A DNA stretch of 64,000 bases from Cetobacterium sp. NK01 (GTDB lineage: Bacteria; Fusobacteriota; Fusobacteriia; Fusobacteriales; Fusobacteriaceae), in assembly GCF_024506395.1 (NCBI RefSeq), contig NZ_JANIBO010000003.1, positions 1 through 64,000 on the forward strand. The letters are read 5' to 3'. The first letter of the stretch is position 1. Every line of letters starts with the position of its first letter. The notes under the pieces were generated by a model that searched no databases, had not been told where the DNA came from, and was given only the letters and a program-made list of their open reading frames with translations. The position numbers were made by a program, and so were the translations under genes. Shown here one piece after another: positions 1,618-20,200 of the stretch.

Positions 1618-3296
1618 ATGGGGATCAAAAATTTTTCTTTTGAAAGTATTGAGACTTATTTACAAAAAAGTAAATATTATATTCCAGATTATCAAAGAGA
1701 GTATTCGTGGAGTAAGGAAACAGAAGTTGATGATTTTTGGAAAGATCTACAAACTATTATTTTAGAAAAAGATAGAGAGGAGCATTTTTTAGGGCAGGTT
1801 GTACTAAACGAAAATGATGGGAAAAAATATATAATTGATGGGCAGCAACGAACAACAACAATGATAATTCTTTTGGCAGTTTTAAGAGATTTTTTTATGA
1901 GTTGCATGAGAAGTTTAATATTTCAGATGCTCAAGATATCTATGAAGATATAAAGATAAAATTTATAGGAAGATATTCTGAAACTAAAAATGAGTTAAAA
2001 TTGACTTTAGGAGAGGTAGATAAGGAATTTTTTAGAACTTATATTCAAATGTTTAGAAAAAAAGAGTTTGAAGTAAATGTAGAGAAAATTCCTTCCCATA
2101 TTAAAATAAAAGAAGCATATAACTATTTTTATAATGAAATCAAGAAAAAGTTAGATGATTCTAAAAACTCAAATGAACAATATTTAAAATTAAAAGAAAT
2201 TTATGAGACTTTTTTATCAAAAATAAAAGTTATGTATGTAGAAACAGATAATGAATATGAAGCATTTATTATATTTGAAACTTTAAATGCTAGAGGAAAA
2301 GATCTTGAGACAGCAGATTTATTAAAAAATCATCTTTTTAGAATATCTAAAGGAAATCTTGAGTTAGTAAAAAATACTTGGCAAAAAATTTTGGAAACTT
2401 TAGAAGAAATAGATGTAACTAGATATATTAGGCATTATTGGAATTCAAAATATTCTTTTTCTAGAGAAAAAGATTTATATAAAAGATTGAGAGATAAAAT
2501 TTCTACTCCTGTTGATACAAAGGAATTTATTGAAGAAATCGAAAAGCTTTCACCATTATATAAATCTTTAGAAAAACCTGAAAATGGATTTTATTTTGAT
2601 GATAAGGATATAAATGAATCTTTAACAAACTTGAGAATAATGGATGCGAGTACTTTTTTCCCTTTGATATTAGCATTAGAGAATAAAGGTTTTAATGAAG
2701 AGATTATAAAAAAAATTGTTCATAATATAGAAACTTTATTTTTAAGAAATTGTGTAATTGGTGATAAAGTTGCAAATAAATATGAAATTTTATTTTCTAA
2801 CTTAGCATCCAAAATAACAACAGAAACATTGATAGATTTTGAATCTATAAATAAAGAATTAAAGGATAATATTTTAAGCGATGAGGAATTCTTAGTTGCG
2901 TTTGAAACAGCAGAAATTAAACAAGTAACTACGGCTAAGTATGTTTTAAGAGAGATTAATGATTTTTATGATAATGAAACAACAATAATCAAAGATAATA
3001 ATAAAATTCAGTTAGAACATATAATGCCAAAAGCATTGGGAGATAAATGGAATATAGACAACGAACTACATACTAAATATTTAAATAAAATTGGTAATTT
3101 AACACTTTTATATAATAAACTAAATAATAAAGTAAAAAATAATACATTTGAAGTAAAAAAGCAATCTTACAGTGAATCTACAATTCAACTTAATAAAGAA
3201 TTAATTAATTTTAAAGAATGGAGTATAAAAAATATAGAATCAAGACAAAAAAAATTATCAGAAATTGCAGTGAAAAGATGGAGTATTATTGAATAA
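1618..3296 (+). pseudogene. GmrSD-type DUF262/DUF1524 protein, frameshifted at a T7 run
   Basis: The first frame (1618-1953) encodes a DUF262 N-terminus with the signature YIIDGQQRT (residues 72-80). At the T7 tract 1890-1896 it goes out of frame. The other frame, open to the stop at 3296, continues the family sequence without a gap: one extra T would read DFFYELHEKFN. The C-terminus has the HNH-like DUF1524 motif LEHIMPKALG. The joined protein would be about 560 residues, normal for single-chain GmrSD-like type IV restriction enzymes, which use the DGQQR domain for nucleotide hydrolysis and DUF1524 for cleavage of modified DNA. The second frame has no convincing RBS of its own, only an internal TTG. 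It may be a pseudogene, a phase-variable gene, a slippage-expressed gene or a sequencing error. Confidence 0.85.
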
Positions 3297-3352: not shown

Positions 3353-6148
3353 ATGGATTTAGCAATTGAAAAATCGCTTATAAATAAAGATATAAATCAT
3401 TCAGATCATAATCCGAAAATAATAATAAATGGAAATACAAAAGGTATTCAAGAGAAGGTTAAAGAAATTTTAGAAAAATCATCTAGAATTGATATAGCTG
3501 TGAGTTATGCTGTTTGGTCAGGATTATCTCTTATACACGAAGGATTAAAAAAATTTGATTCTAAAAGCAGAATAATAGTTACAACAGATGGAACTGTTAC
3601 AGATATAAGATCATTGGAAGCTTTAAAAGAACTGTCAATTAGTTCTAAGGTTTATGATCCTGAATTTGGAGATATGGGATTTCATTTAAAAAGTTATTTT
3701 GGTGAAAATTCAAAAGAAAAAACTCTTCTAATCGGAAGTTCTAATATATCATTAAGGGCTTTTGGGTTTGTGCATGAGATGGGAGTTGAAATCAAGGCTA
3801 AAGATGAGGGAGAGATTGTAAAAGAGTATAGAGATACGTTCGATATGATTTGGAATGATAAATCATCAAAATTTATTACAGAAGAATTTATTAATGAATA
3901 CAAGGAAAAGTTTAATAGAAAAAAAGAGTTATTAAAAAAGATTTCTGATATAAAATTAGAATCTGAAATAACTCCAAATTATATGCAAAGAAAAGCTTTA
4001 GAGGAGTTAAAAGAGTGTCGAAAAGAATTTGATAGAGGATTAGTTATAGCTGCAACAGGAACAGGTAAAACATACTTATCAGCGTTTGATGTTAGAAATT
4101 CTAAAGCTAAAAAAGTTCTATTTTTAGTTCATAACAGACTTATTTTAACTGATGCAATAAAAACTTTTAAAAAAATATTTAAAGATAAAAAAATACTAGA
4201 GTTAAAAACTAATAATACTTTTGAGCAAATATCAAATGCAGATTTTATTTTTACAACAGATAAAACTGCTAAAAATACTTTTTATAAAAGTTCTAAATAT
4301 TCAAAAGATTTTTTTGATTATATTATTTATGATGAAGCTCATAAAATTGGAGAAGAGACTATATATAAAAATTTAATTGAATGGTTTAATCCAAAATTTT
4401 CTTTAGGAATTACAGCTACTCCAGAAAGAAGTGATAATCCTAAATACCTATTTGAAGTATTTAAATATAATGTTCCTTATGAAATTCGATTATTAGATGC
4501 TATGGAGCATGAATTAGTTTGTCCTTTTACTTATTATGGTTATAATCTAGATGAAAGGCTTTTAAAATCTAAAGAAAAATTTGATGTAGAAAAATTAGCT
4601 GTTTATTTAAAAGATCTTATAAAAGACAAAGGGCACTATGGAGAAAAATTAAAAGGTATTGTATTTTGTAAAGACGTTGATGAAGCAGAAAGCTTATCAA
4701 ATGAGTTTAATAAATTAAATATTATTAGTTTTTGTGCAAGTGGTTATGAGGTTGATAGAGAGAAAATAGAAGAACAAATTTTAAGTTTAAAATCTGATAA
4801 AGAAAAAAGTACTCAATTAGTTTGTGTTGTTGATAGATTTAATGAAGGTGTTGATATTCCAGGAGTCAATATGATTATTATGCTTAGAAATACTACTTCA
4901 TCAATAATATATTTACAGCAATTGGGAAGAGGGTTAAGAAGAACGAATGATCCACATAAATATGTTACAGTTTTTGATATAATTGGAAACTCTAAAAATA
5001 ACTATAGTATAGCAGAGGTTTTAACAGGAAATACAACTGTAGATAAAAGAAAATTATTCAAGTATGCTAATACTGGGTTTAAAACAGTATCTCCTTTTAT
5101 TAATGTTGAAATTGAAAAAGAAGCTATGGATAAAATAATAAAGTCTATTTCTAAGGAGTTCAAGGTAGAGAGTCAACTTAAGCAAAAGTTTAGAGATGAA
5201 CTTTACAGATTTAAAGAAATACCAACTTTACTAGAACTTTATAAAAATCCAAATTTTAAAGAGTTAGAACTTATTCAATTACTTTGTAAAAATTTTTATG
5301 ATGTATTTGTGGAAAAATATGTGGAAAAATATAATATAGTTAAAGATAGTGATTTTTTATCTAAGTTCTTTAAATTTATAACACAATTTATTTTTAGAGC
5401 TTATAATAAGGAAACTCTAGTTGATTATTCAAAACTTTTAAAAGGAGAGAAAAGCTCAAATTCTATTTTAATTAGGATTCTTGCTCATAAAGATGATTGT
5501 GAAAATAGTATATCTAGCGCTATTAAAAGTGACTATTATAATTTAAAGTACTCTTTACCTAAAGTATTTTTATACGAAAATGAAGAGTTGTTAATAAATA
5601 GTAAAATAATTAATAAATTAAAAGAAGAAAATGCATATGAATTATTCTTGGAACATATTGATTTAATAGAATATTTAAGTCAAAATCATGATTATAAAAT
5701 GAAAACATTTGATTTATTGGATAAAGGAGAGTTTCTTTTTAACTCTGGTTCAGAAGACTGTTATATGAATGCAATAGGAGAGTTAATGGATAAAAAAAAT
5801 AAAAAAGTATACTGTCCAATTACAATTTCTGAAAAAGAAACTTTTCATGATAATTCTATTTATGAATCTGATAAGATTATTTATTTAACAAAAACTTCAA
5901 TGACAAAAGAAGCTGCAGAAAAGAAATTAAAAGAGTTTATTGATAAGAATTACGAGTTTTGTATAGGAGTAAGATTCCCACATCTTCAATATAGTAATAC
6001 TTCATATTTTAATATGGGAAAAGTTAAAATTATAGGAGAACCGGAGTTAAATAAAGTAGATACAAAAAAATATAATCATAAGATAAAATTTCAATTAGAA
6101 GAAAAAATTCCAGATGAATTATTACAATATAAAAGTTTGGTAGAATAA
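3353..6148 (+). CDS. DEAD/DEAH helicase with N-terminal PLD nuclease-like domain and DUF3427
   Basis: This 931-residue protein starts at an ATG 6 bases after AAGGAGAG. Residues about 20-190 form a phospholipase-D-like domain with one HxK half-motif (H111, K113) and LLIGSSNIS near 125-133, as in PLD-type restriction nucleases. A superfamily 2 helicase follows: Walker A AATGTGKT (233-240), DEAH (327-330), TATPER (near 354) and the arginine motif QQLGRGLRR (near 520). The C-terminus resembles DUF3427. PLD-helicase-DUF3427 is a recurrent defence architecture thought to translocate on and cut foreign DNA. An intrinsic terminator follows 85 bases downstream, so this gene ends a transcription unit. 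The nucleic-acid substrate is not deducible. Confidence 0.88.
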   Translation: MDLAIEKSLINKDINHSDHNPKIIINGNTKGIQEKVKEILEKSSRIDIAVSYAVWSGLSLIHEGLKKFDSKSRIIVTTDGTVTDIRSLEALKELSISSKVYDPEFGDMGFHLKSYFGENSKEKTLLIGSSNISLRAFGFVHEMGVEIKAKDEGEIVKEYRDTFDMIWNDKSSKFITEEFINEYKEKFNRKKELLKKISDIKLESEITPNYMQRKALEELKECRKEFDRGLVIAATGTGKTYLSAFDVRNSKAKKVLFLVHNRLILTDAIKTFKKIFKDKKILELKTNNTFEQISNADFIFTTDKTAKNTFYKSSKYSKDFFDYIIYDEAHKIGEETIYKNLIEWFNPKFSLGITATPERSDNPKYLFEVFKYNVPYEIRLLDAMEHELVCPFTYYGYNLDERLLKSKEKFDVEKLAVYLKDLIKDKGHYGEKLKGIVFCKDVDEAESLSNEFNKLNIISFCASGYEVDREKIEEQILSLKSDKEKSTQLVCVVDRFNEGVDIPGVNMIIMLRNTTSSIIYLQQLGRGLRRTNDPHKYVTVFDIIGNSKNNYSIAEVLTGNTTVDKRKLFKYANTGFKTVSPFINVEIEKEAMDKIIKSISKEFKVESQLKQKFRDELYRFKEIPTLLELYKNPNFKELELIQLLCKNFYDVFVEKYVEKYNIVKDSDFLSKFFKFITQFIFRAYNKETLVDYSKLLKGEKSSNSILIRILAHKDDCENSISSAIKSDYYNLKYSLPKVFLYENEELLINSKIINKLKEENAYELFLEHIDLIEYLSQNHDYKMKTFDLLDKGEFLFNSGSEDCYMNAIGELMDKKNKKVYCPITISEKETFHDNSIYESDKIIYLTKTSMTKEAAEKKLKEFIDKNYEFCIGVRFPHLQYSNTSYFNMGKVKIIGEPELNKVDTKKYNHKIKFQLEEKIPDELLQYKSLVE

Positions 6149-6232
6149 AAAACTTGAATTAAGTTATTAATAACGGTTTAATTATTTTAATGCTATTAAT
6201 AAGTATAGAATATGTAGCATTAAATCCAGTGG

Positions 6233-6265
6233 AAACAAGAGTTTAAAAGCTCTTGTTTTTTTTGT
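6233..6265 (+). terminator. Intrinsic terminator after the PLD helicase
   Basis: A 9-bp perfect stem (AAACAAGAG at 6233-6241, CTCTTGTTT at 6250-6258) is followed by an unbroken T run. A second weaker inverted repeat (TAATGCTA / TAGCATTA) lies just upstream at about 6189-6222. It separates the helicase from the RNase III-like gene. Confidence 0.85.
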
Positions 6266-6331
6266 TTTTGCTGTTGTTTTATGGTAAAATAATAATAGGA
6301 TTTTATTGCTTTTGTGGGGGAGGTAAAGAAA

Positions 6332-9300
6332 ATGGAAACTTGTTTATTAAGGAAAAAGAAGATTTGTTCATTTGATATTTTAGAGGAAAATGGAAAGAAA
6401 AATATGGAGTTAGAAACTATTTGGAGAATTGCAAGTCAAAAAAATTTATTATACTGTGATGAATGTGGAGAAGCAGTTTTTCTTAAATCTGGAAATATTA
6501 AAGTTCCTCATTTTGCACATAATTTAAGTCATGATAACAAGTTTTGTTCTAAAAGAAATTTTATAACAAGTGAAGAGTATATTAATAACAAGAAAAATAT
6601 TTATACAATTTTGAAAAAAATACCTGAAATAAGTTTTTTAGAAGTTGATTTTGAAAATAAAGTGGAATTTTTAACAACTTATAATAATATGAATATAAAA
6701 GTGTATCTGAAAAAAATTGAAGAGTTTTTAGAAAGCAAAATAAAATATGAAGGAATGGTTTTTTTATATGGAAATGAAAAAAATATTAAGTCTATAAAAA
6801 AAGATAAAAATCTTTTTTATTTAAATAATAGAGAAATTACTGTATTAGAACCTCTGCTAAACCCAAGAAAGATAAATTTAGATATGGAGGCTTTAAAAGA
6901 GCTTTATCTAAAATATATAGCTTTAGAAAAAGACAAAAGAAGAAGTAATATAGATTTATTTATAAAAGAAAATATTAATAATTTTTACGAAAAGTTTCAA
7001 TTTTCAAAATTTGATAACTTAGAAAAAGAGATAAAAGATTTAATAACTCATAGTACGGTAAAAAATATGAAACTTCAGTCATCTAGCCAAGAGGATAAAA
7101 TATCAGATGATTATTATTTAATAAGCGGAAGAAGTTTGGTTAATATTTTAGTAGGAACATATTTTTATGAAAGAGGAATTAAAGAGGACTATAGGATTTC
7201 AAATAAAATATCTAATTTTCTAACTGTAAAATTATTTGATTGTTTAAAGTTAGAAGATATATTGGTTATAGAAAAAAATGTTGATATGACTGATTCAGTT
7301 AAGCAGATATTTTTAAATAAAATAATAGGATTTTTATTCTATAAAAAAGGGTTTGTATACTTAAAGAGATTGATTTTTAAATATATTGGATTAGAAGAAA
7401 ATTATATGAAAAACTATGAAGAAATATTTAATCAAATAATATCAAAAACTGGGTTATCGGCACAATATACAGTAGTTAGTGAATCAGGTTTGGATCACTG
7501 TAAAATATTTGAGATTAAAATGAAAGTTCAAAACAAAGATTATTATGCAAAAGCTAAAAGTAAAAAAGAAGCAATGAAAGAGTGTAAAAAAATTTTTTTA
7601 GATAAAAATCCAGAATTATTAAAGTTTAGTAATTTAGAAAAAACTAAAACTTTTCAGAAAAATCGTAAAAATATTGAGTATACTCTGAATCAAGAAAAAC
7701 AATATGAAAAACTTAGAAGTAATTTTAAATGCGATATGTCAAGAGTAAAAAGTTATTTTATACATAAATCTATGTACTTAGATTATAACGCTTTAGATAT
7801 AACTGGTGCTGTTACTATAGGAGCTGAAGTAAAAAGATTGGTAATCTTAAATATAATATTTGAAAATAGAATGAAAATTGATGATGATATTTTAAAAATT
7901 TTAGAATACTGTATTTTAAATGATCGAACTACAGAGATATTAAGAGATAATAATTTCGAAAGTTTAATAATTAAAAAGAAAGCACATGAAAATTTAGATG
8001 GACAATTGGAGAATAAAGATGTTTTTCAATCTCTATTGTTTTTAAATTTTCAATGTGATCCAAGTTGTAATTATCTGAAAACATTAATGGAGCCATTCTA
8101 TAAGAATGATATTTTAAATATAAATAAATTAGAAATAACTCAAGCACAAGAAATCTTCCAAAAAAATTATATAGATTTTGAATATAGTTATGTAGATAGT
8201 AATATAGATTTTTCTTTAGAGAAAATAACTTGTAATTTAAAGGTTAATCTATTAGAAGATATAGAAGAGGATTTTTTCTATTATGGAGTTGGAAAAAATA
8301 AAAAAGAAGCTAAAAGAAAAGCTGACGAAAAATTTTTAAAAACTTGGAGTGAAAATTTAGAATTTTTATTCTCTACATTTAGAGTGCAAGACTATAATAA
8401 TGAAAATATAGTGGAGCAAGTCAATAATAAAAAATTTTTAAATTCGTATATAAATCATTTTTTGAATATCTCAAAGGATAACTTAATTCAAATTTTAGAT
8501 TTTTATAAATATTTAAAAAAGTATAATTTAAAAGAATTTTCAGAAATAAAGAAATTTGTAGAAAAAATAGCAGGAACCTTTAGGGAGAATGAAGAGATTT
8601 TAGATAAATTATTAAAAATAGTTTTTATAGGAGTAGAGAATTTAAACGAAGAAAACTATGAGAAGTGTTTGAATAATAGATGGAATAATAATTTAGAAAG
8701 TATTTTATTAGGAATATACATACAAAATTCAAAAGATTTATTTTTAACGAATAATTTAGAAGATATTTATAGATTGGTGGAAACGCTTTTAGGTGAGGAG
8801 GAGTTTGAGCTTTCAAAAAATATTTTAGAATCTTTATTAATTGCAGATATTCCTTTAAATAACTTAGAAAAAGCATTAGAGATTTATGATAAATTAGAAC
8901 TTTTAGATGAAGATGTTTTCAAAGAGAAAAGAGAAGTATATTTAAAATTAGATAAAAGTAATAAAGATTTTTTAGAAAATGAGCCTTTGAAAGAAGAAGT
9001 TTTAAATAAACACTTTGTTATTAATAGGGTAATTGGAGATTTATATTTTCTAAAAAACACTGACTTAAATCTAGAGTTTCAAATTTCATCTAAGAGCATT
9101 CCAGGAAAAGTAAAGCCTTTAACAAATGGTGATATATTAGAGTGTAAAATAATAAAAAATCAAAAAAATGAATTTGATTTTCTAGAAGCGAATTTTTTTA
9201 AGAACACGATTACAGGTACGATTAAATATATCGATTTAGAAAATAGAATAGTATATGTTCAAGATTTATTGGATAAAATTTATTATCAATATTGTTTTGA

Positions 9301-9364
9301 AAAACATGAGAAAGAATTTATTGGAGTAGGACTAGAAAAAGAAGTAACTATAAATTTAAAATAA
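6332..9364 (+). CDS. CoiA-like zinc-finger protein with tandem degenerate RNase III and dsRBD units
   Basis: 1010 residues from the ATG at 6332, chosen because GGGGGAGG lies 7 bases upstream; an in-frame GTG at 6314 overlaps that RBS. Numbering below counts from the GTG (subtract 6). Residues 45-80 hold a CoiA-like zinc finger (C48, C51, H66, H69, C78). Residues 243-372 fit an RNase III fold (THS at 245-247, SGRSL, then an IIGFLF helix), followed by a clear dsRBD at 378-432 (GLSAQYTVVSESG, then KSKKEA). A second RNase III-like segment (FIHKS at 482-486, to about 600) and second dsRBD (615-680, KNKKEA) follow. By alignment, acids are replaced by L269, R273, I332 and N335 in copy one; copy two has V500, A504, D569 and Q572. 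Hence cleavage is unlikely and dsRNA binding probable. The C-terminus (900-1016) looks like two small beta-barrel domains. It is flanked by terminators on both sides, so it is probably monocistronic. Confidence 0.8.
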   Translation: METCLLRKKKICSFDILEENGKKNMELETIWRIASQKNLLYCDECGEAVFLKSGNIKVPHFAHNLSHDNKFCSKRNFITSEEYINNKKNIYTILKKIPEISFLEVDFENKVEFLTTYNNMNIKVYLKKIEEFLESKIKYEGMVFLYGNEKNIKSIKKDKNLFYLNNREITVLEPLLNPRKINLDMEALKELYLKYIALEKDKRRSNIDLFIKENINNFYEKFQFSKFDNLEKEIKDLITHSTVKNMKLQSSSQEDKISDDYYLISGRSLVNILVGTYFYERGIKEDYRISNKISNFLTVKLFDCLKLEDILVIEKNVDMTDSVKQIFLNKIIGFLFYKKGFVYLKRLIFKYIGLEENYMKNYEEIFNQIISKTGLSAQYTVVSESGLDHCKIFEIKMKVQNKDYYAKAKSKKEAMKECKKIFLDKNPELLKFSNLEKTKTFQKNRKNIEYTLNQEKQYEKLRSNFKCDMSRVKSYFIHKSMYLDYNALDITGAVTIGAEVKRLVILNIIFENRMKIDDDILKILEYCILNDRTTEILRDNNFESLIIKKKAHENLDGQLENKDVFQSLLFLNFQCDPSCNYLKTLMEPFYKNDILNINKLEITQAQEIFQKNYIDFEYSYVDSNIDFSLEKITCNLKVNLLEDIEEDFFYYGVGKNKKEAKRKADEKFLKTWSENLEFLFSTFRVQDYNNENIVEQVNNKKFLNSYINHFLNISKDNLIQILDFYKYLKKYNLKEFSEIKKFVEKIAGTFRENEEILDKLLKIVFIGVENLNEENYEKCLNNRWNNNLESILLGIYIQNSKDLFLTNNLEDIYRLVETLLGEEEFELSKNILESLLIADIPLNNLEKALEIYDKLELLDEDVFKEKREVYLKLDKSNKDFLENEPLKEEVLNKHFVINRVIGDLYFLKNTDLNLEFQISSKSIPGKVKPLTNGDILECKIIKNQKNEFDFLEANFFKNTITGTIKYIDLENRIVYVQDLLDKIYYQYCFEKHEKEFIGVGLEKEVTINLK

Positions 9365-9373
9365 GATTTTATG

Positions 9374-9403
9374 TAGAGATGCAAAATGCATCTCTATTTT
9401 TTT
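9374..9403 (+). terminator. Intrinsic terminator after the dsRBD protein
   Basis: A perfect 10-bp stem (TAGAGATGCA 9374-9383, TGCATCTCTA 9387-9396) with an AAA loop is followed by T7. It ends the 6332 gene and insulates the following operon. Confidence 0.92.
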
Positions 9404-9500
9404 AAAGTAAATAATATACTGTTAAAAAAAACAAAAAAACTATTGACTTTTTACAAAATAAAGATTATACTTCAAACATAAAAGTAAATGATATACTGTT
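9404..9500 (+). repeat. Pair of 20-bp direct repeats flanking a promoter (probable operators)
   Basis: Positions 9404-9423 and 9481-9500 carry the same 20 bases except one (AAAGTAAAT[A/G]ATATACTGTT). They lie 77 bases apart and bracket the promoter at 9443-9471. Each has a partial dyad (AGTA/TACT). Two near-identical sites around one promoter are typical of repressor operators, possibly with DNA looping. The regulator is not identified; products of the operon itself (specificity subunit or methylase) are candidates by inference only. Confidence 0.7.
9443..9471 (+). promoter_or_regulatory. Consensus sigma-70-type promoter of the half-S/methylase/Z1 operon
   Basis: TTGACT at 9443-9448, a 17-base spacer, and TATACT at 9466-9471. 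It lies 51 bases upstream of the first gene and between two direct repeats. It is the cleanest promoter in the defence island. Confidence 0.85.
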
Positions 9501-11386: not shown

Positions 11387-12079
11387 ATGAAGGAGATATT
11401 AAATTTTTTAAAAGAAACAAAAAATAGCAAATATAATGATTTACTAGCATGTTTGGAATTAAAAAAAGATATATTAGATGAAATTAGAGATAAGATAGCT
11501 CATGAAAACATTCCAGAAATAGCCAAGTTAGGTGATATGGAAAAAATGACAAATATTATGAATATAATGAGCCAATTGAAAGAAAAATCTGAGTTGATTG
11601 ATGATATATTGGAAAAAGATTTGGATGTTGAAGAATATGAAGAGATTGAAAAAACAAGTCCTAAAGATTATGAAAATTATAAGGTAGATGATCAAGTAGA
11701 GCATAATCTTTATGGTACTTTTACTTTTAAAAGACCTTGTGGAATAAGAATAGAGAATAAAAAAATAGACACTAACAATTGGAAAGAGGTTTTAATAAAT
11801 ACTTGTGAGTATTTAGTACACAAAGATAAAAATACATTTTTAGATATAATTATCAGTAAAAAAATAACTGGAAGAAAAAGGGAGCTAATATCATCATCTA
11901 AAGATAACTTAAGAGATCCTAAATATATAAAAGAGGTAAATGGGTATATAGAAACTAATTTAAGTGCCAATGGTATTAAAAATATTATAAAAAGACTTTT
12001 AAAAGAGTATAAGATTCCAGTTAAAGATTATGGTGTTTATTTAAGAGCTGACTATACAGAGTTAAATAATCAAAAATAA
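11387..12079 (+). CDS. Unknown protein of the Z1 operon, 230 residues
   Basis: It starts at an ATG after AAGGGGGAG. Residues 1-90 are helical and charged, possibly a coiled coil. Residues about 110-228 form a compact C-terminal module containing RPCGIRIENKKIDTNNWKEV and ETNLSANGIKNIIKRLL. That layout (a short beta strand pair, a conserved Trp, then a helix beginning with ETNLSA) recalls an accessory domain I have seen in restriction-linked proteins, but I cannot name it. No nuclease motif is visible. Its position between methylase and Z1 ATPase suggests an adaptor or regulator in the same system. Confidence 0.7.
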   Translation: MKEILNFLKETKNSKYNDLLACLELKKDILDEIRDKIAHENIPEIAKLGDMEKMTNIMNIMSQLKEKSELIDDILEKDLDVEEYEEIEKTSPKDYENYKVDDQVEHNLYGTFTFKRPCGIRIENKKIDTNNWKEVLINTCEYLVHKDKNTFLDIIISKKITGRKRELISSSKDNLRDPKYIKEVNGYIETNLSANGIKNIIKRLLKEYKIPVKDYGVYLRADYTELNNQK

Positions 12080-17213: not shown

Positions 17214-20200
17214 ATGTCAAATTTTAGTTTTTTAGAAAATGATTTTAAAGAATTATATCTTGATTGTAAAGAAGCAGAGGAAAATGTATATATAAAACCA
17301 AGAACAAGTTGTTTTTATAGTAGAAGAGCTTTAGAATTAGCAGTTAATATACTATTTGATTTAGAAGGATTGGATAAACCCACTAAAGAAATAAATGGGA
17401 AAATTATTACAGATAAAACTTTAGGAACTTTAATAAGAACTTCAGAATTTAAAAGTATAATAGATAATTCAGAAGAGTTAGAAAAAATAAATATTATAAG
17501 ATTATCTGGAAATGAGGCTGTTCATAAAAATAGTGCTATAACAAGTGAAGTCGCACTAATTTCTTTAGAGATATTATATGATTTTACTTCATGGATGGCT
17601 TATTGTTACGGTAGTTTAAAAGAAGAAAAACCTTTTAATATAAATATTATAAACAAATATTCTTCTATGAGAGAGGAAGAGTTATTAAAAAGAATAGAAA
17701 TTTTAGAAAAAGAGAAAAATGAAAATTTAAATAAATTAAATTACTCAAAAGTAGAGCAAGTAAATAAAAAACACAGAGAGCTCACTATTAAAAACATAGA
17801 TGAAGCTAAAACTAGAAAGTTATATATAGATATTCTCTTAAGGGAAGCTGGCTGGGATATTAATCAACCTAATGTTAAAGAATTTAAGGTTAATGGAATG
17901 CCAAATAAAAAGGAAGAGGGATATGCTGATTATGTTTTGTGGGGAGATAATGGAAAACCTTTAGCTGTTGTGGAAGCGAAAAGAACTTTAAAAAACCCAG
18001 AAGAAGGAAAACATCAAGTAACTTTATATGCTGAGTGTTTGGAAAAAGATTGGGGACAATATCCTGTAAGATTTTATACAAATGGATTTGAAACTTATAT
18101 ATGGGAAAAAAATGAGATTCCTAGACAAGTTTATGGATTTTATAGAAAAGAAGAACTTGAAACTTTAATTATAAGAAGAACACAATCTTTAGATTTAGAT
18201 AAAGCAAGAAAGCTGATTAATCCAGATATTGCAGGAAGAAGCTACCAACTTAGAGCCATAACAAAAGTAATTGAAAATTATTATGATAATTATAGAAAAG
18301 CTCTTTTAGTAATGGCTACAGGATCTGGAAAAACTAGAACTTCGATATCAATTGTAGATGTATTATTAACTGCTAATAGAATTAAAAGAGTATTATTTTT
18401 AGCAGATAGAACAGCTCTTGTAAATCAAGCTCAAAAAAATTTTTCTAAACTAATTGGAAGCGACCATACTTTGGAGAATTTAATTGAGACTAAAGGAAAT
18501 AGTAAAGCTAGAATAGTATTTTCTACATATCAAACAATGATAAATGAAATAGATAAACTAAGGGAAGATGGGACAAGACAATTTGGTGTAGGGTATTTTG
18601 ATTTAATAATAGTGGATGAATCTCATAGAAGTATTTATAAAAAATACGGTGCAATTTTTGATTATTTTGACAGCTTGTTATTAGGATTAACTGCAACACC
18701 AAAAGATGAAATAGATAGAAATACATACAAAGTATTTGATTTAAAAGATGGAGAACCAACAGATTCATATAATTTATTTGATGCTGTAAATGATGGTTAT
18801 TTAGTATTACCTGAAGTTAAGGAGATTGATTTAAAATTTCCAGAAAAGGGTATTAAATATAGTGAATTAAGCGATGCTGATAAAGAGGAATATGAATTGA
18901 AATTTTCAGACGATGAGGGTAATATTCCTGATGAGATTGGATCTGAAGCACTTAATAGTTGGTTATTTAATAAAAATACAGTTGAAAAAGTTATTGAAAC
19001 ATTAATGTCTCAAGGACATAAAGTAGAAGGTGGAGATAAACTAGGAAAAACTATTATATTTGCCAAAAATGATAAACATGCTGAGTTCATAGTAGAAGTT
19101 TTTAATAAAATGTTTCCACAATTAGGTGGAGAGTTTTGCCAAAAAATTACAAATAAAGTGAATTATGCTCAAGATTTGATAGATAGATTTTCTATTGTTA
19201 CTAAATTTCCTCAAATAGCTGTTTCTGTTGATATGCTTGATACAGGAATAGATGTTCCTGAAGTTTTAAATCTAGTATTCTTTAAGAAGATAAGATCGAA
19301 ATCAAAATTCTGGCAAATGATTGGAAGAGGAACTAGACTTTGTCCAAATATATTTTCACCTGAAATTGATAAGAAAAATTTTTATATTTTTGATTTTTGT
19401 AAAAATTTTACATTTTTCGAAAGCAATCAAAAAGAGATTGAAGGATGTGTTCCAGAAAGTCTTACACAAAAGATATTTAATTCTAGAGTTAATCTTACTT
19501 ACTTTTTACAAGATATTAAATATCAAGAAATTAAGGAATATAAAGAGTTTTGGAATAATTTATTAAATACAATACATAATGATATTTTAGAAATCGATAT
19601 ATCATCAGCTTTTGCAAGAAAAGAAGTAAGATATATTGAAAAATATAAAGATAAAGATGAACTAACAAATTTAAATGAAATAAAAATAAATGAACTTAAA
19701 AATAATATAAGTTATATTGTTTATTCTAAAGATTTAGATGAGAAAGCAAAGAGATTCGATTTACTTATAATGAAGTTACAACTATCAATACTTGATGAAG
19801 GTAAAGTTATTCCAAGTGCTATTAAAGGATTGAGAGAGTTAGGAAAAGGGCTTGAAAAGTTAGGAAGCATTCCTAAGGTTCTTGAAAAAAAAGAAGTAGT
19901 TAAATTACTTAATAATGATGAATTTTGGGAAGATATTGATATTATTGCTTTAGAAAAAATTAGAAATGATTTAAGAGATTTAATCAAATATTTAGATGGA
20001 GATAATTCTTCTCAAAAAATTATTTATACAGATTTTTCTGATGAGATAATAAAAACTGAAACTAAGGGGATTTCTTTTGGGGTATATGATTTTTTACCAA
20101 CAAGAGATCGTGTTAGAAAAATAATGCTTGAAAATAAAGAAAAAGCATCATTAATTAAGTTAAAAAACAATATTGTTCTAGATGATATAGATATTAAAGA

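Follow-up and report, generated by a model that had tools for sequence, protein, structure and literature searches.

A rare gene in a bacterial defence island predicted to encode two RNase III-like and dsRNA-binding units that have lost most catalytic acids

Introduction

The sensing of viral dsRNA by dsRNA-binding domains (dsRBDs) is central to animal immunity, PKR being one example, and a tandem of RNase III domains defines Dicer. The protein described here, encoded in a stretch of Cetobacterium sp. NK01 DNA of 64,000 nucleotides (the window), has features of both kinds. It is colinear, in each of its two copies, with bacterial RNase III (rnc; PDB 2nug, 3n3w), in which an RNase III domain is followed by a dsRBD. 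Unlike the bacterial enzyme, however, it carries the two copies in tandem in one chain, it has lost three or four of the four catalytic acids in each copy, and it adds a zinc finger and C-terminal regions, while its host has a separate intact rnc. With Dicer and Drosha, which are also among its Foldseek matches, it would share the presence of two RNase III-like domains in one polypeptide. It differs from them in that no active site is retained, no helicase, PAZ or platform domain was detected in the chain, and a dsRBD follows each copy, whereas in Dicer and Drosha the dsRBD is found at the end only. A first-pass annotation of this DNA had called the arrangement Dicer-like. That description suits the tandem order, but not the rest: there is no cutting site in either copy, and Pfam gave no match to a helicase or a PAZ domain in the chain.

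Catalytically dead RNase III folds with RNA-binding extras are known from mL44, a top structural match of our protein, and from the trypanosome KREPB proteins. These differ from the present protein in being single-copy and eukaryotic, and in belonging to ribosome or editing complexes. The nearest described architecture is that of the cyanobacterial HEPN-RNase III-dsRBD proteins, which are bacterial multidomain proteins of the conflict type and are predicted to be active (PMC3710099). They also join RNase III to a dsRBD, but with a single RNase III domain and a HEPN RNase, and neither a tandem nor a zinc finger is mentioned for them. The N-terminal zinc finger (PF25164) is shared with the competence protein CoiA. 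In CoiA the PD-(D/E)XK nuclease domain carries a PD-EXQ motif (PMC1189080), whereas no PD-(D/E)XK nuclease domain was detected after the finger here. Finally, the CBASS cyclase CdnE03 shows that structured phage RNA can trigger immunity in bacteria (PMC10686824). The likeness is a functional analogy only, as CdnE03 is a nucleotide cyclase.

The component domains are known, and their combination was found described in no bacterium in the literature searched, which included few subscription papers or bioRxiv preprints. Within that literature, the earlier statement that no described bacterial system has this architecture stands.

Results

The open reading frame of the focal gene is intact over 1010 codons from an ATG start, whereas no open stretch in 600 shuffled frames exceeded 122 aa. 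Its codon-position GC resembles that of the neighbouring genes and its composition is coding-like, and its GC content is the lowest in the window. An alternative GTG start at 6314 would give the protein six extra residues. The features of the gene and its surroundings are collected in Table 1.

Table 1. Positions, in the window, of the focal gene, its predicted domains and the flanking signals
Feature	Position	Strand	Basis and remarks
Intergenic element: terminator and promoter-like tail	6188..6291	+	Recurs ahead of other cargo in the genome and genus
Intrinsic terminator hairpin between PLD-helicase and focal gene	6231..6260	+	13 pairs, then T run
Ribosome-binding site GGGGGAGG	6316..6323	+	Read directly in the sequence; SD 8 nt before ATG, graded strong
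Focal gene	6332..9364	+	1010 aa: CoiA-type zinc finger, two (RNase III-like, dsRBD) units, middle-to-C-terminal region without family
CoiA_N zinc finger, residues 36-65 (C42, C45, H60, H63)	6437..6526	+	Pfam PF25164, E 1e-9, above its cut-off
Putative pseudo-RNase III copy 1, residues 215-358; L263, R267, I326, N329	6974..7405	+	Alignment, shuffle test, model
dsRBD 1, best match residues 366-418; GLDH and KSKKEA (409-414) retained	7424..7585	+	Pfam dsrm
Putative pseudo-RNase III copy 2, residues 456-606; V494, A498, D563, Q566	7697..8149	+	Alignment, shuffle test, model
dsRBD 2; KNKKEA (655-660) retained, GPxH loop lost	8147..8323	+	Pfam dsrm
Residues ~687-879, probably alpha-helical (inferred from sequence)	8390..8970	+	Pfam: no family found
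C-terminal part, residues ~881-1010, beta-like pattern by eye	8972..9361	+	Searches without support
Intrinsic terminator 3' of focal gene	9373..9397	+	Terminator scan

A scan of the sequence gave five terminator-like sites against 1.5 in shuffles, so that such sites are plausible rather than proven; the two that enclose the focal gene are favoured by their T-runs and intergenic placement. With terminators on both sides, the gene looks like a single transcription unit separate from both neighbours, a view that is supported but not proven. A promoter-like TTGACT-17-TATACT at 9443 lies ahead of the gene downstream.

The zinc finger that the first-pass annotation had placed at the N-terminus is a Pfam CoiA_N match. 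Within the phylum, such a finger is present in just one further genome. The dsrm model of Pfam is significant twice, placing one dsRBD after each RNase III-like copy, and the two lysine-rich signatures noted earlier are both there (Table 1). While dsRBD 1 retains the GxDH loop together with the KKEA lysines, dsRBD 2 retains the lysines without the loop. By whole-genome profile search, the host has one other dsRBD gene, an ordinary and catalytically intact RNase III, and another of its frames, 132 codons long, contains an RNase III domain, as Mini-III would. Because these genes lie elsewhere in the genome, the focal protein is not the housekeeping RNase III. No model of NCBIfam, PHROGs or PADLOC matches the focal protein, the PADLOC-DB 2.0.0 defence-protein models included.

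The evidence for the RNase III-like regions is of another kind. Profile searches for the families named in the first-pass annotation recovered CoiA_N and, twice, the dsRBD, but the Pfam RNase III models matched neither copy. A phmmer comparison with the Campylobacter RNase III (PDB 3n3w) aligned residues 219-425 (E 3.7e-7), with the dsRBD carrying most of the score, and an RNase III profile match at E 2.4e-9 likewise includes the dsRBD, which dominates it. For the RNase III part without the dsRBD, P was 0.026 in copy 1 and 0.48 in copy 2. Copy 2 together with its dsRBD nevertheless aligns colinearly across nearly the full RNase III length. In shuffle tests against 21 RNase III sequences, the copies without their dsRBDs gave z values of 7.2 (copy 1) and 6.1 (copy 2), whereas the values for eight further stretches of the chain ranged from -0.6 to 2.4 against the same set; as 20 of the 21 references come from the same phylum and are mutually related, these z values overstate independence. 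No shuffle out of 300 reached the real score, and one out of 300 did so for shorter cuts. Against six phage RNase III sequences, z was 2.3 for copy 1 and 2.2 for copy 2, with one control stretch at 2.0. Between the two copies themselves, the RNase III parts gave no signal of kinship (z -1.25) and the dsRBDs a weak one (z 2.8). Taking these scores together with the models described below, we regard copy 1 as very likely, and copy 2 as likely, RNase III-like in fold.

When the alignment included phage RNase III rows, AlphaFold2 modelled copy 1 with pLDDT values mostly of 70-80 and dsRBD 1 with values of about 75-93. Copy 2 was unreliable, with no confident fold, when homologue rows were omitted; with RNase III rows its pLDDT was mostly 60-80 (mean 65.7). 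RNase III was the top Foldseek match of both models (E 7e-8 and 1e-7), and mL44, Drosha and Dicer were also returned, with mL44 among the best matches of both. The TM-scores, normalised to the isolated RNase III nuclease domain 3o2r, were 0.63 and 0.66. Since the RNase III rows steer the models, they express compatibility with RNase III and are not independent proof. The structure prediction suggested in the first-pass annotation thus gave models of both copies that match RNase III, copy 2 doing so only with RNase III rows. As for its central claim, two RNase III-like folds each followed by a dsRBD, the dsRBDs are confirmed, and both folds are supported, though not proven, by the shuffle test and the steered models, Pfam being silent on them.

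The catalytic positions were aligned with the GD and IGA motifs as anchors. The four acids of active RNase III (E, D, D, E) correspond to L, R, I and N in copy 1 and to V, A, D and Q in copy 2, which reproduces exactly the residues read in the first-pass annotation. In copy 1, both alignments agree on the loss of three acids, and the better of the two shows the fourth as lost as well; the second alignment has a gap at the first position, the call for which is alignment-dependent, and the other three positions are stable. In copy 2, three of the four are lost and D563 is retained. Because the acids are lost, two-metal catalysis of the RNase III type would not be expected from established enzymology, and the loss argues against dsRNA cleavage by this protein.

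Residues 66-214, 690-880 and 881-1010 gave no convincing match in Pfam or the PDB, and no effector domain was recognised in the protein. Two beta modules had been proposed for the C-terminus, a proposal that found no backing: there was no Pfam match, no meaningful PDB match and no cold-shock signal. The comparison for a cold-shock-like C-terminus was made with two cold-shock sequences. A degenerate CoiA nuclease after the finger was also considered and rejected, as sequence methods gave no Pfam match and a z of 0.7 for residues 66-200 against a CoiA-like protein of the same genus.

Searches of the tblastn type in 97 other genomes of the phylum and about 290 further ones (388 others in total, a limited reach) returned no homologue of the focal protein, the sole matches being ordinary RNase III genes, and tblastn in plasmids and phages gave none either. 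Peptide-pattern scans of viral and genome collections, which are weak tests, were negative. With a DNA pattern for the shared YYxxxK[SN]KKEA, 72 frames were compared among the matches listed, and none was related to the focal protein. When dsRBD genes were sorted by profile and frame length, RNase III-sized frames were seen throughout the phylum and, among the matches listed, a few longer ones elsewhere. Judged by these searches the gene is rare, and we do not claim that it is unique.

The focal gene is surrounded by a PDC-M33-like module (partly in the window), a GmrSD-like gene, a SauUSI-like PLD-helicase and an HsdS/HsdM-like/Z1 unit, with a type I RM system, a Schlafen-type helicase and another GmrSD further on. 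These genes bear out its earlier assignment to a defence island. The PLD-helicase and the methylase/Z1 unit, which had been named as its flanks, are indeed neighbours, but a partnership with the focal gene is not supported, given the terminators that separate them from it and the helicase relatives without a dsRBD gene nearby. For the same reasons, a two-gene system of PLD-helicase and focal gene was considered and found to be unsupported. Relatives of the helicase occur in 71 of the 98 phylum genomes, this one included. The closest (57-59% identical) are fused to or adjoin a NUDIX-like protein amid metabolic genes, and the flanks retrieved contain no dsRBD gene. In the window, the last third of the helicase (3353-6148) does not align to plasmid relatives, and no NUDIX-like protein is adjacent. 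On a 29-kb contig, the 3' part of this helicase gene occurs twice as a relic, 91% identical in DNA and containing stop codons (G008:C1:3175-3370 and 17799-17994).

Positions 1-1594 of the window, which hold the PADLOC candidate PDC-M33 genes, correspond to G008:C2:137797-139390 in a same-genus genome, at 97% DNA identity. After the matched stretch, that genome has short PLD-helicase scraps and then a Zorya-like ZorA/B/C set instead of this island. This indicates a swap locus, at which defence cargo is exchanged. Copies of the intergenic element upstream of the focal gene occur at G000:C8:18148-18211, G000:C7:44811-44930 and G005:C50:83395-83454 (78-94% identity). In the host genome, one copy lies immediately 3' of an ORF that resembles a plasmid replication initiator, and another precedes a type I RM operon. 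The element may mark a point of cargo exchange, its recurrence being in line with mobile cargo.

Discussion

Our preferred reading, which we hold tentatively, is that the focal protein is an accessory scaffold or sensor that binds dsRNA without cutting it and serves in phage defence. The candidate dsRNA sensor of the first-pass annotation would be compatible with the anatomy of the protein. The sequence shows the ORF, both dsRBDs, the zinc finger, the loss of catalytic acids and the swap locus; beyond these, we infer the actual binding of dsRNA, the internal pairing, the relay and the role in defence. The gene would be a horizontally moved, accessory single-gene dsRNA-binding pseudonuclease, whose two RNase III-dsRBD units may pair inside the chain as a pseudo-dimer, much as RNase IIIa and IIIb do in Dicer. 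The pseudo-dimer would clamp a dsRNA helix by means of its dsRBDs without cutting it, and the zinc finger and C-terminal half could relay a signal or recruit a partner. In view of the gene's location in a defence swap locus, phage-derived dsRNA or structured RNA, either sensed or sequestered, would be the most likely ligand.

Several observations favour this reading. Two significant dsRBDs keep the KKxA basic motif, both are preceded by RNase III-like regions whose models match RNase III and the dead mL44, and three or four of the four acids are gone in each copy while the host RNase III is intact. Moreover, this is one gene between two terminators amid defence genes, another genome of the genus has a Zorya-like system at the corresponding place, and CdnE03 is a precedent for immunity that reads structured phage RNA (PMC10686824). 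On the other hand, the reading is weakened by the lack of a homologue, and thus of conserved residues or a partner to cite, by the folding of copy 2 only with RNase III rows, by the weak similarity to phage RNase III, by the lack of a recognised effector domain and by the missing GPxH loop of dsRBD 2; nor does a location in an island prove a function in defence. That the protein is a new type of bacterial dsRNA sensor, a nuclease-dead Dicer-like pseudo-dimer for phage dsRNA which signals through its zinc finger and C-terminal half as a counterpart of PKR, seems unlikely to us. A defence-island protein in which two dead RNase III-dsRBD units are combined would be a sign that dsRNA readers without cutting activity are made by bacteria as well, and it would offer a small, testable entry to dsRNA as a cue in anti-phage immunity.

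Other explanations were considered. RNase III acts as a dimer, and pairs of an inactive with an active chain exist (PMC9508840). In trypanosome editing complexes, for instance, the partners of the catalytic RNase III proteins are KREPB proteins, which are non-catalytic. A pseudo-RNase III domain of the focal protein might therefore pair with an active chain of the host RNase III, which is intact, and steer or inhibit it. The higher scores of the copies against same-phylum than against phage RNase III would suit such pairing, but this likeness may reflect origin alone, and the tandem copies favour pairing inside one chain, so that a role as partner of the host enzyme is rather doubtful. The protein could also belong to plasmid biology, binding antisense-RNA duplexes or shielding them from RNase III and thereby tuning the replication or stability of an element. 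That antisense RNA and RNase III control plasmids is well established, and in the host genome a copy of the element ahead of the focal gene lies immediately 3' of an ORF resembling a plasmid replication initiator. However, that element also precedes a restriction operon, and the focal gene now lies amid defence genes, which makes a plasmid function distinctly improbable.

A structural role in an RNP, or in association with the ribosome, was also weighed, since both models have mL44 of mitoribosomes, a dead RNase III plus a dsRBD, among their best structural matches. A protein that is not in 97 other phylum genomes is not a core RNP part, however, and the tandem copies and the zinc finger set it apart from mL44, so that we regard this role as very unlikely. 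We give equally little credence to the view that an RNase III-type gene is in decay here and no longer has a function. The lost catalytic residues, the orphan status, the lowest GC in the window and the relic pieces of the neighbouring helicase gene in a relative would all agree with decay, but 1010 intact codons, a strong SD, a coding-like codon composition and the basic motif kept in both dsRBDs speak against it.

Some further features of the surroundings were noted. The GmrSD-like gene (1618-3296) is split into two overlapping ORFs, 1618-1953 and 1902-3296, a pattern suggestive of a frameshift. A 230-aa ORF (11387-12079) separates the HsdM-like gene from the Z1 gene; it matches no family, but a genome of the same family (G030) has 70% identical DNA. 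The Schlafen group 3 helicase protein encoded at 21615-23396 matches the PADLOC candidate PDC-S41.
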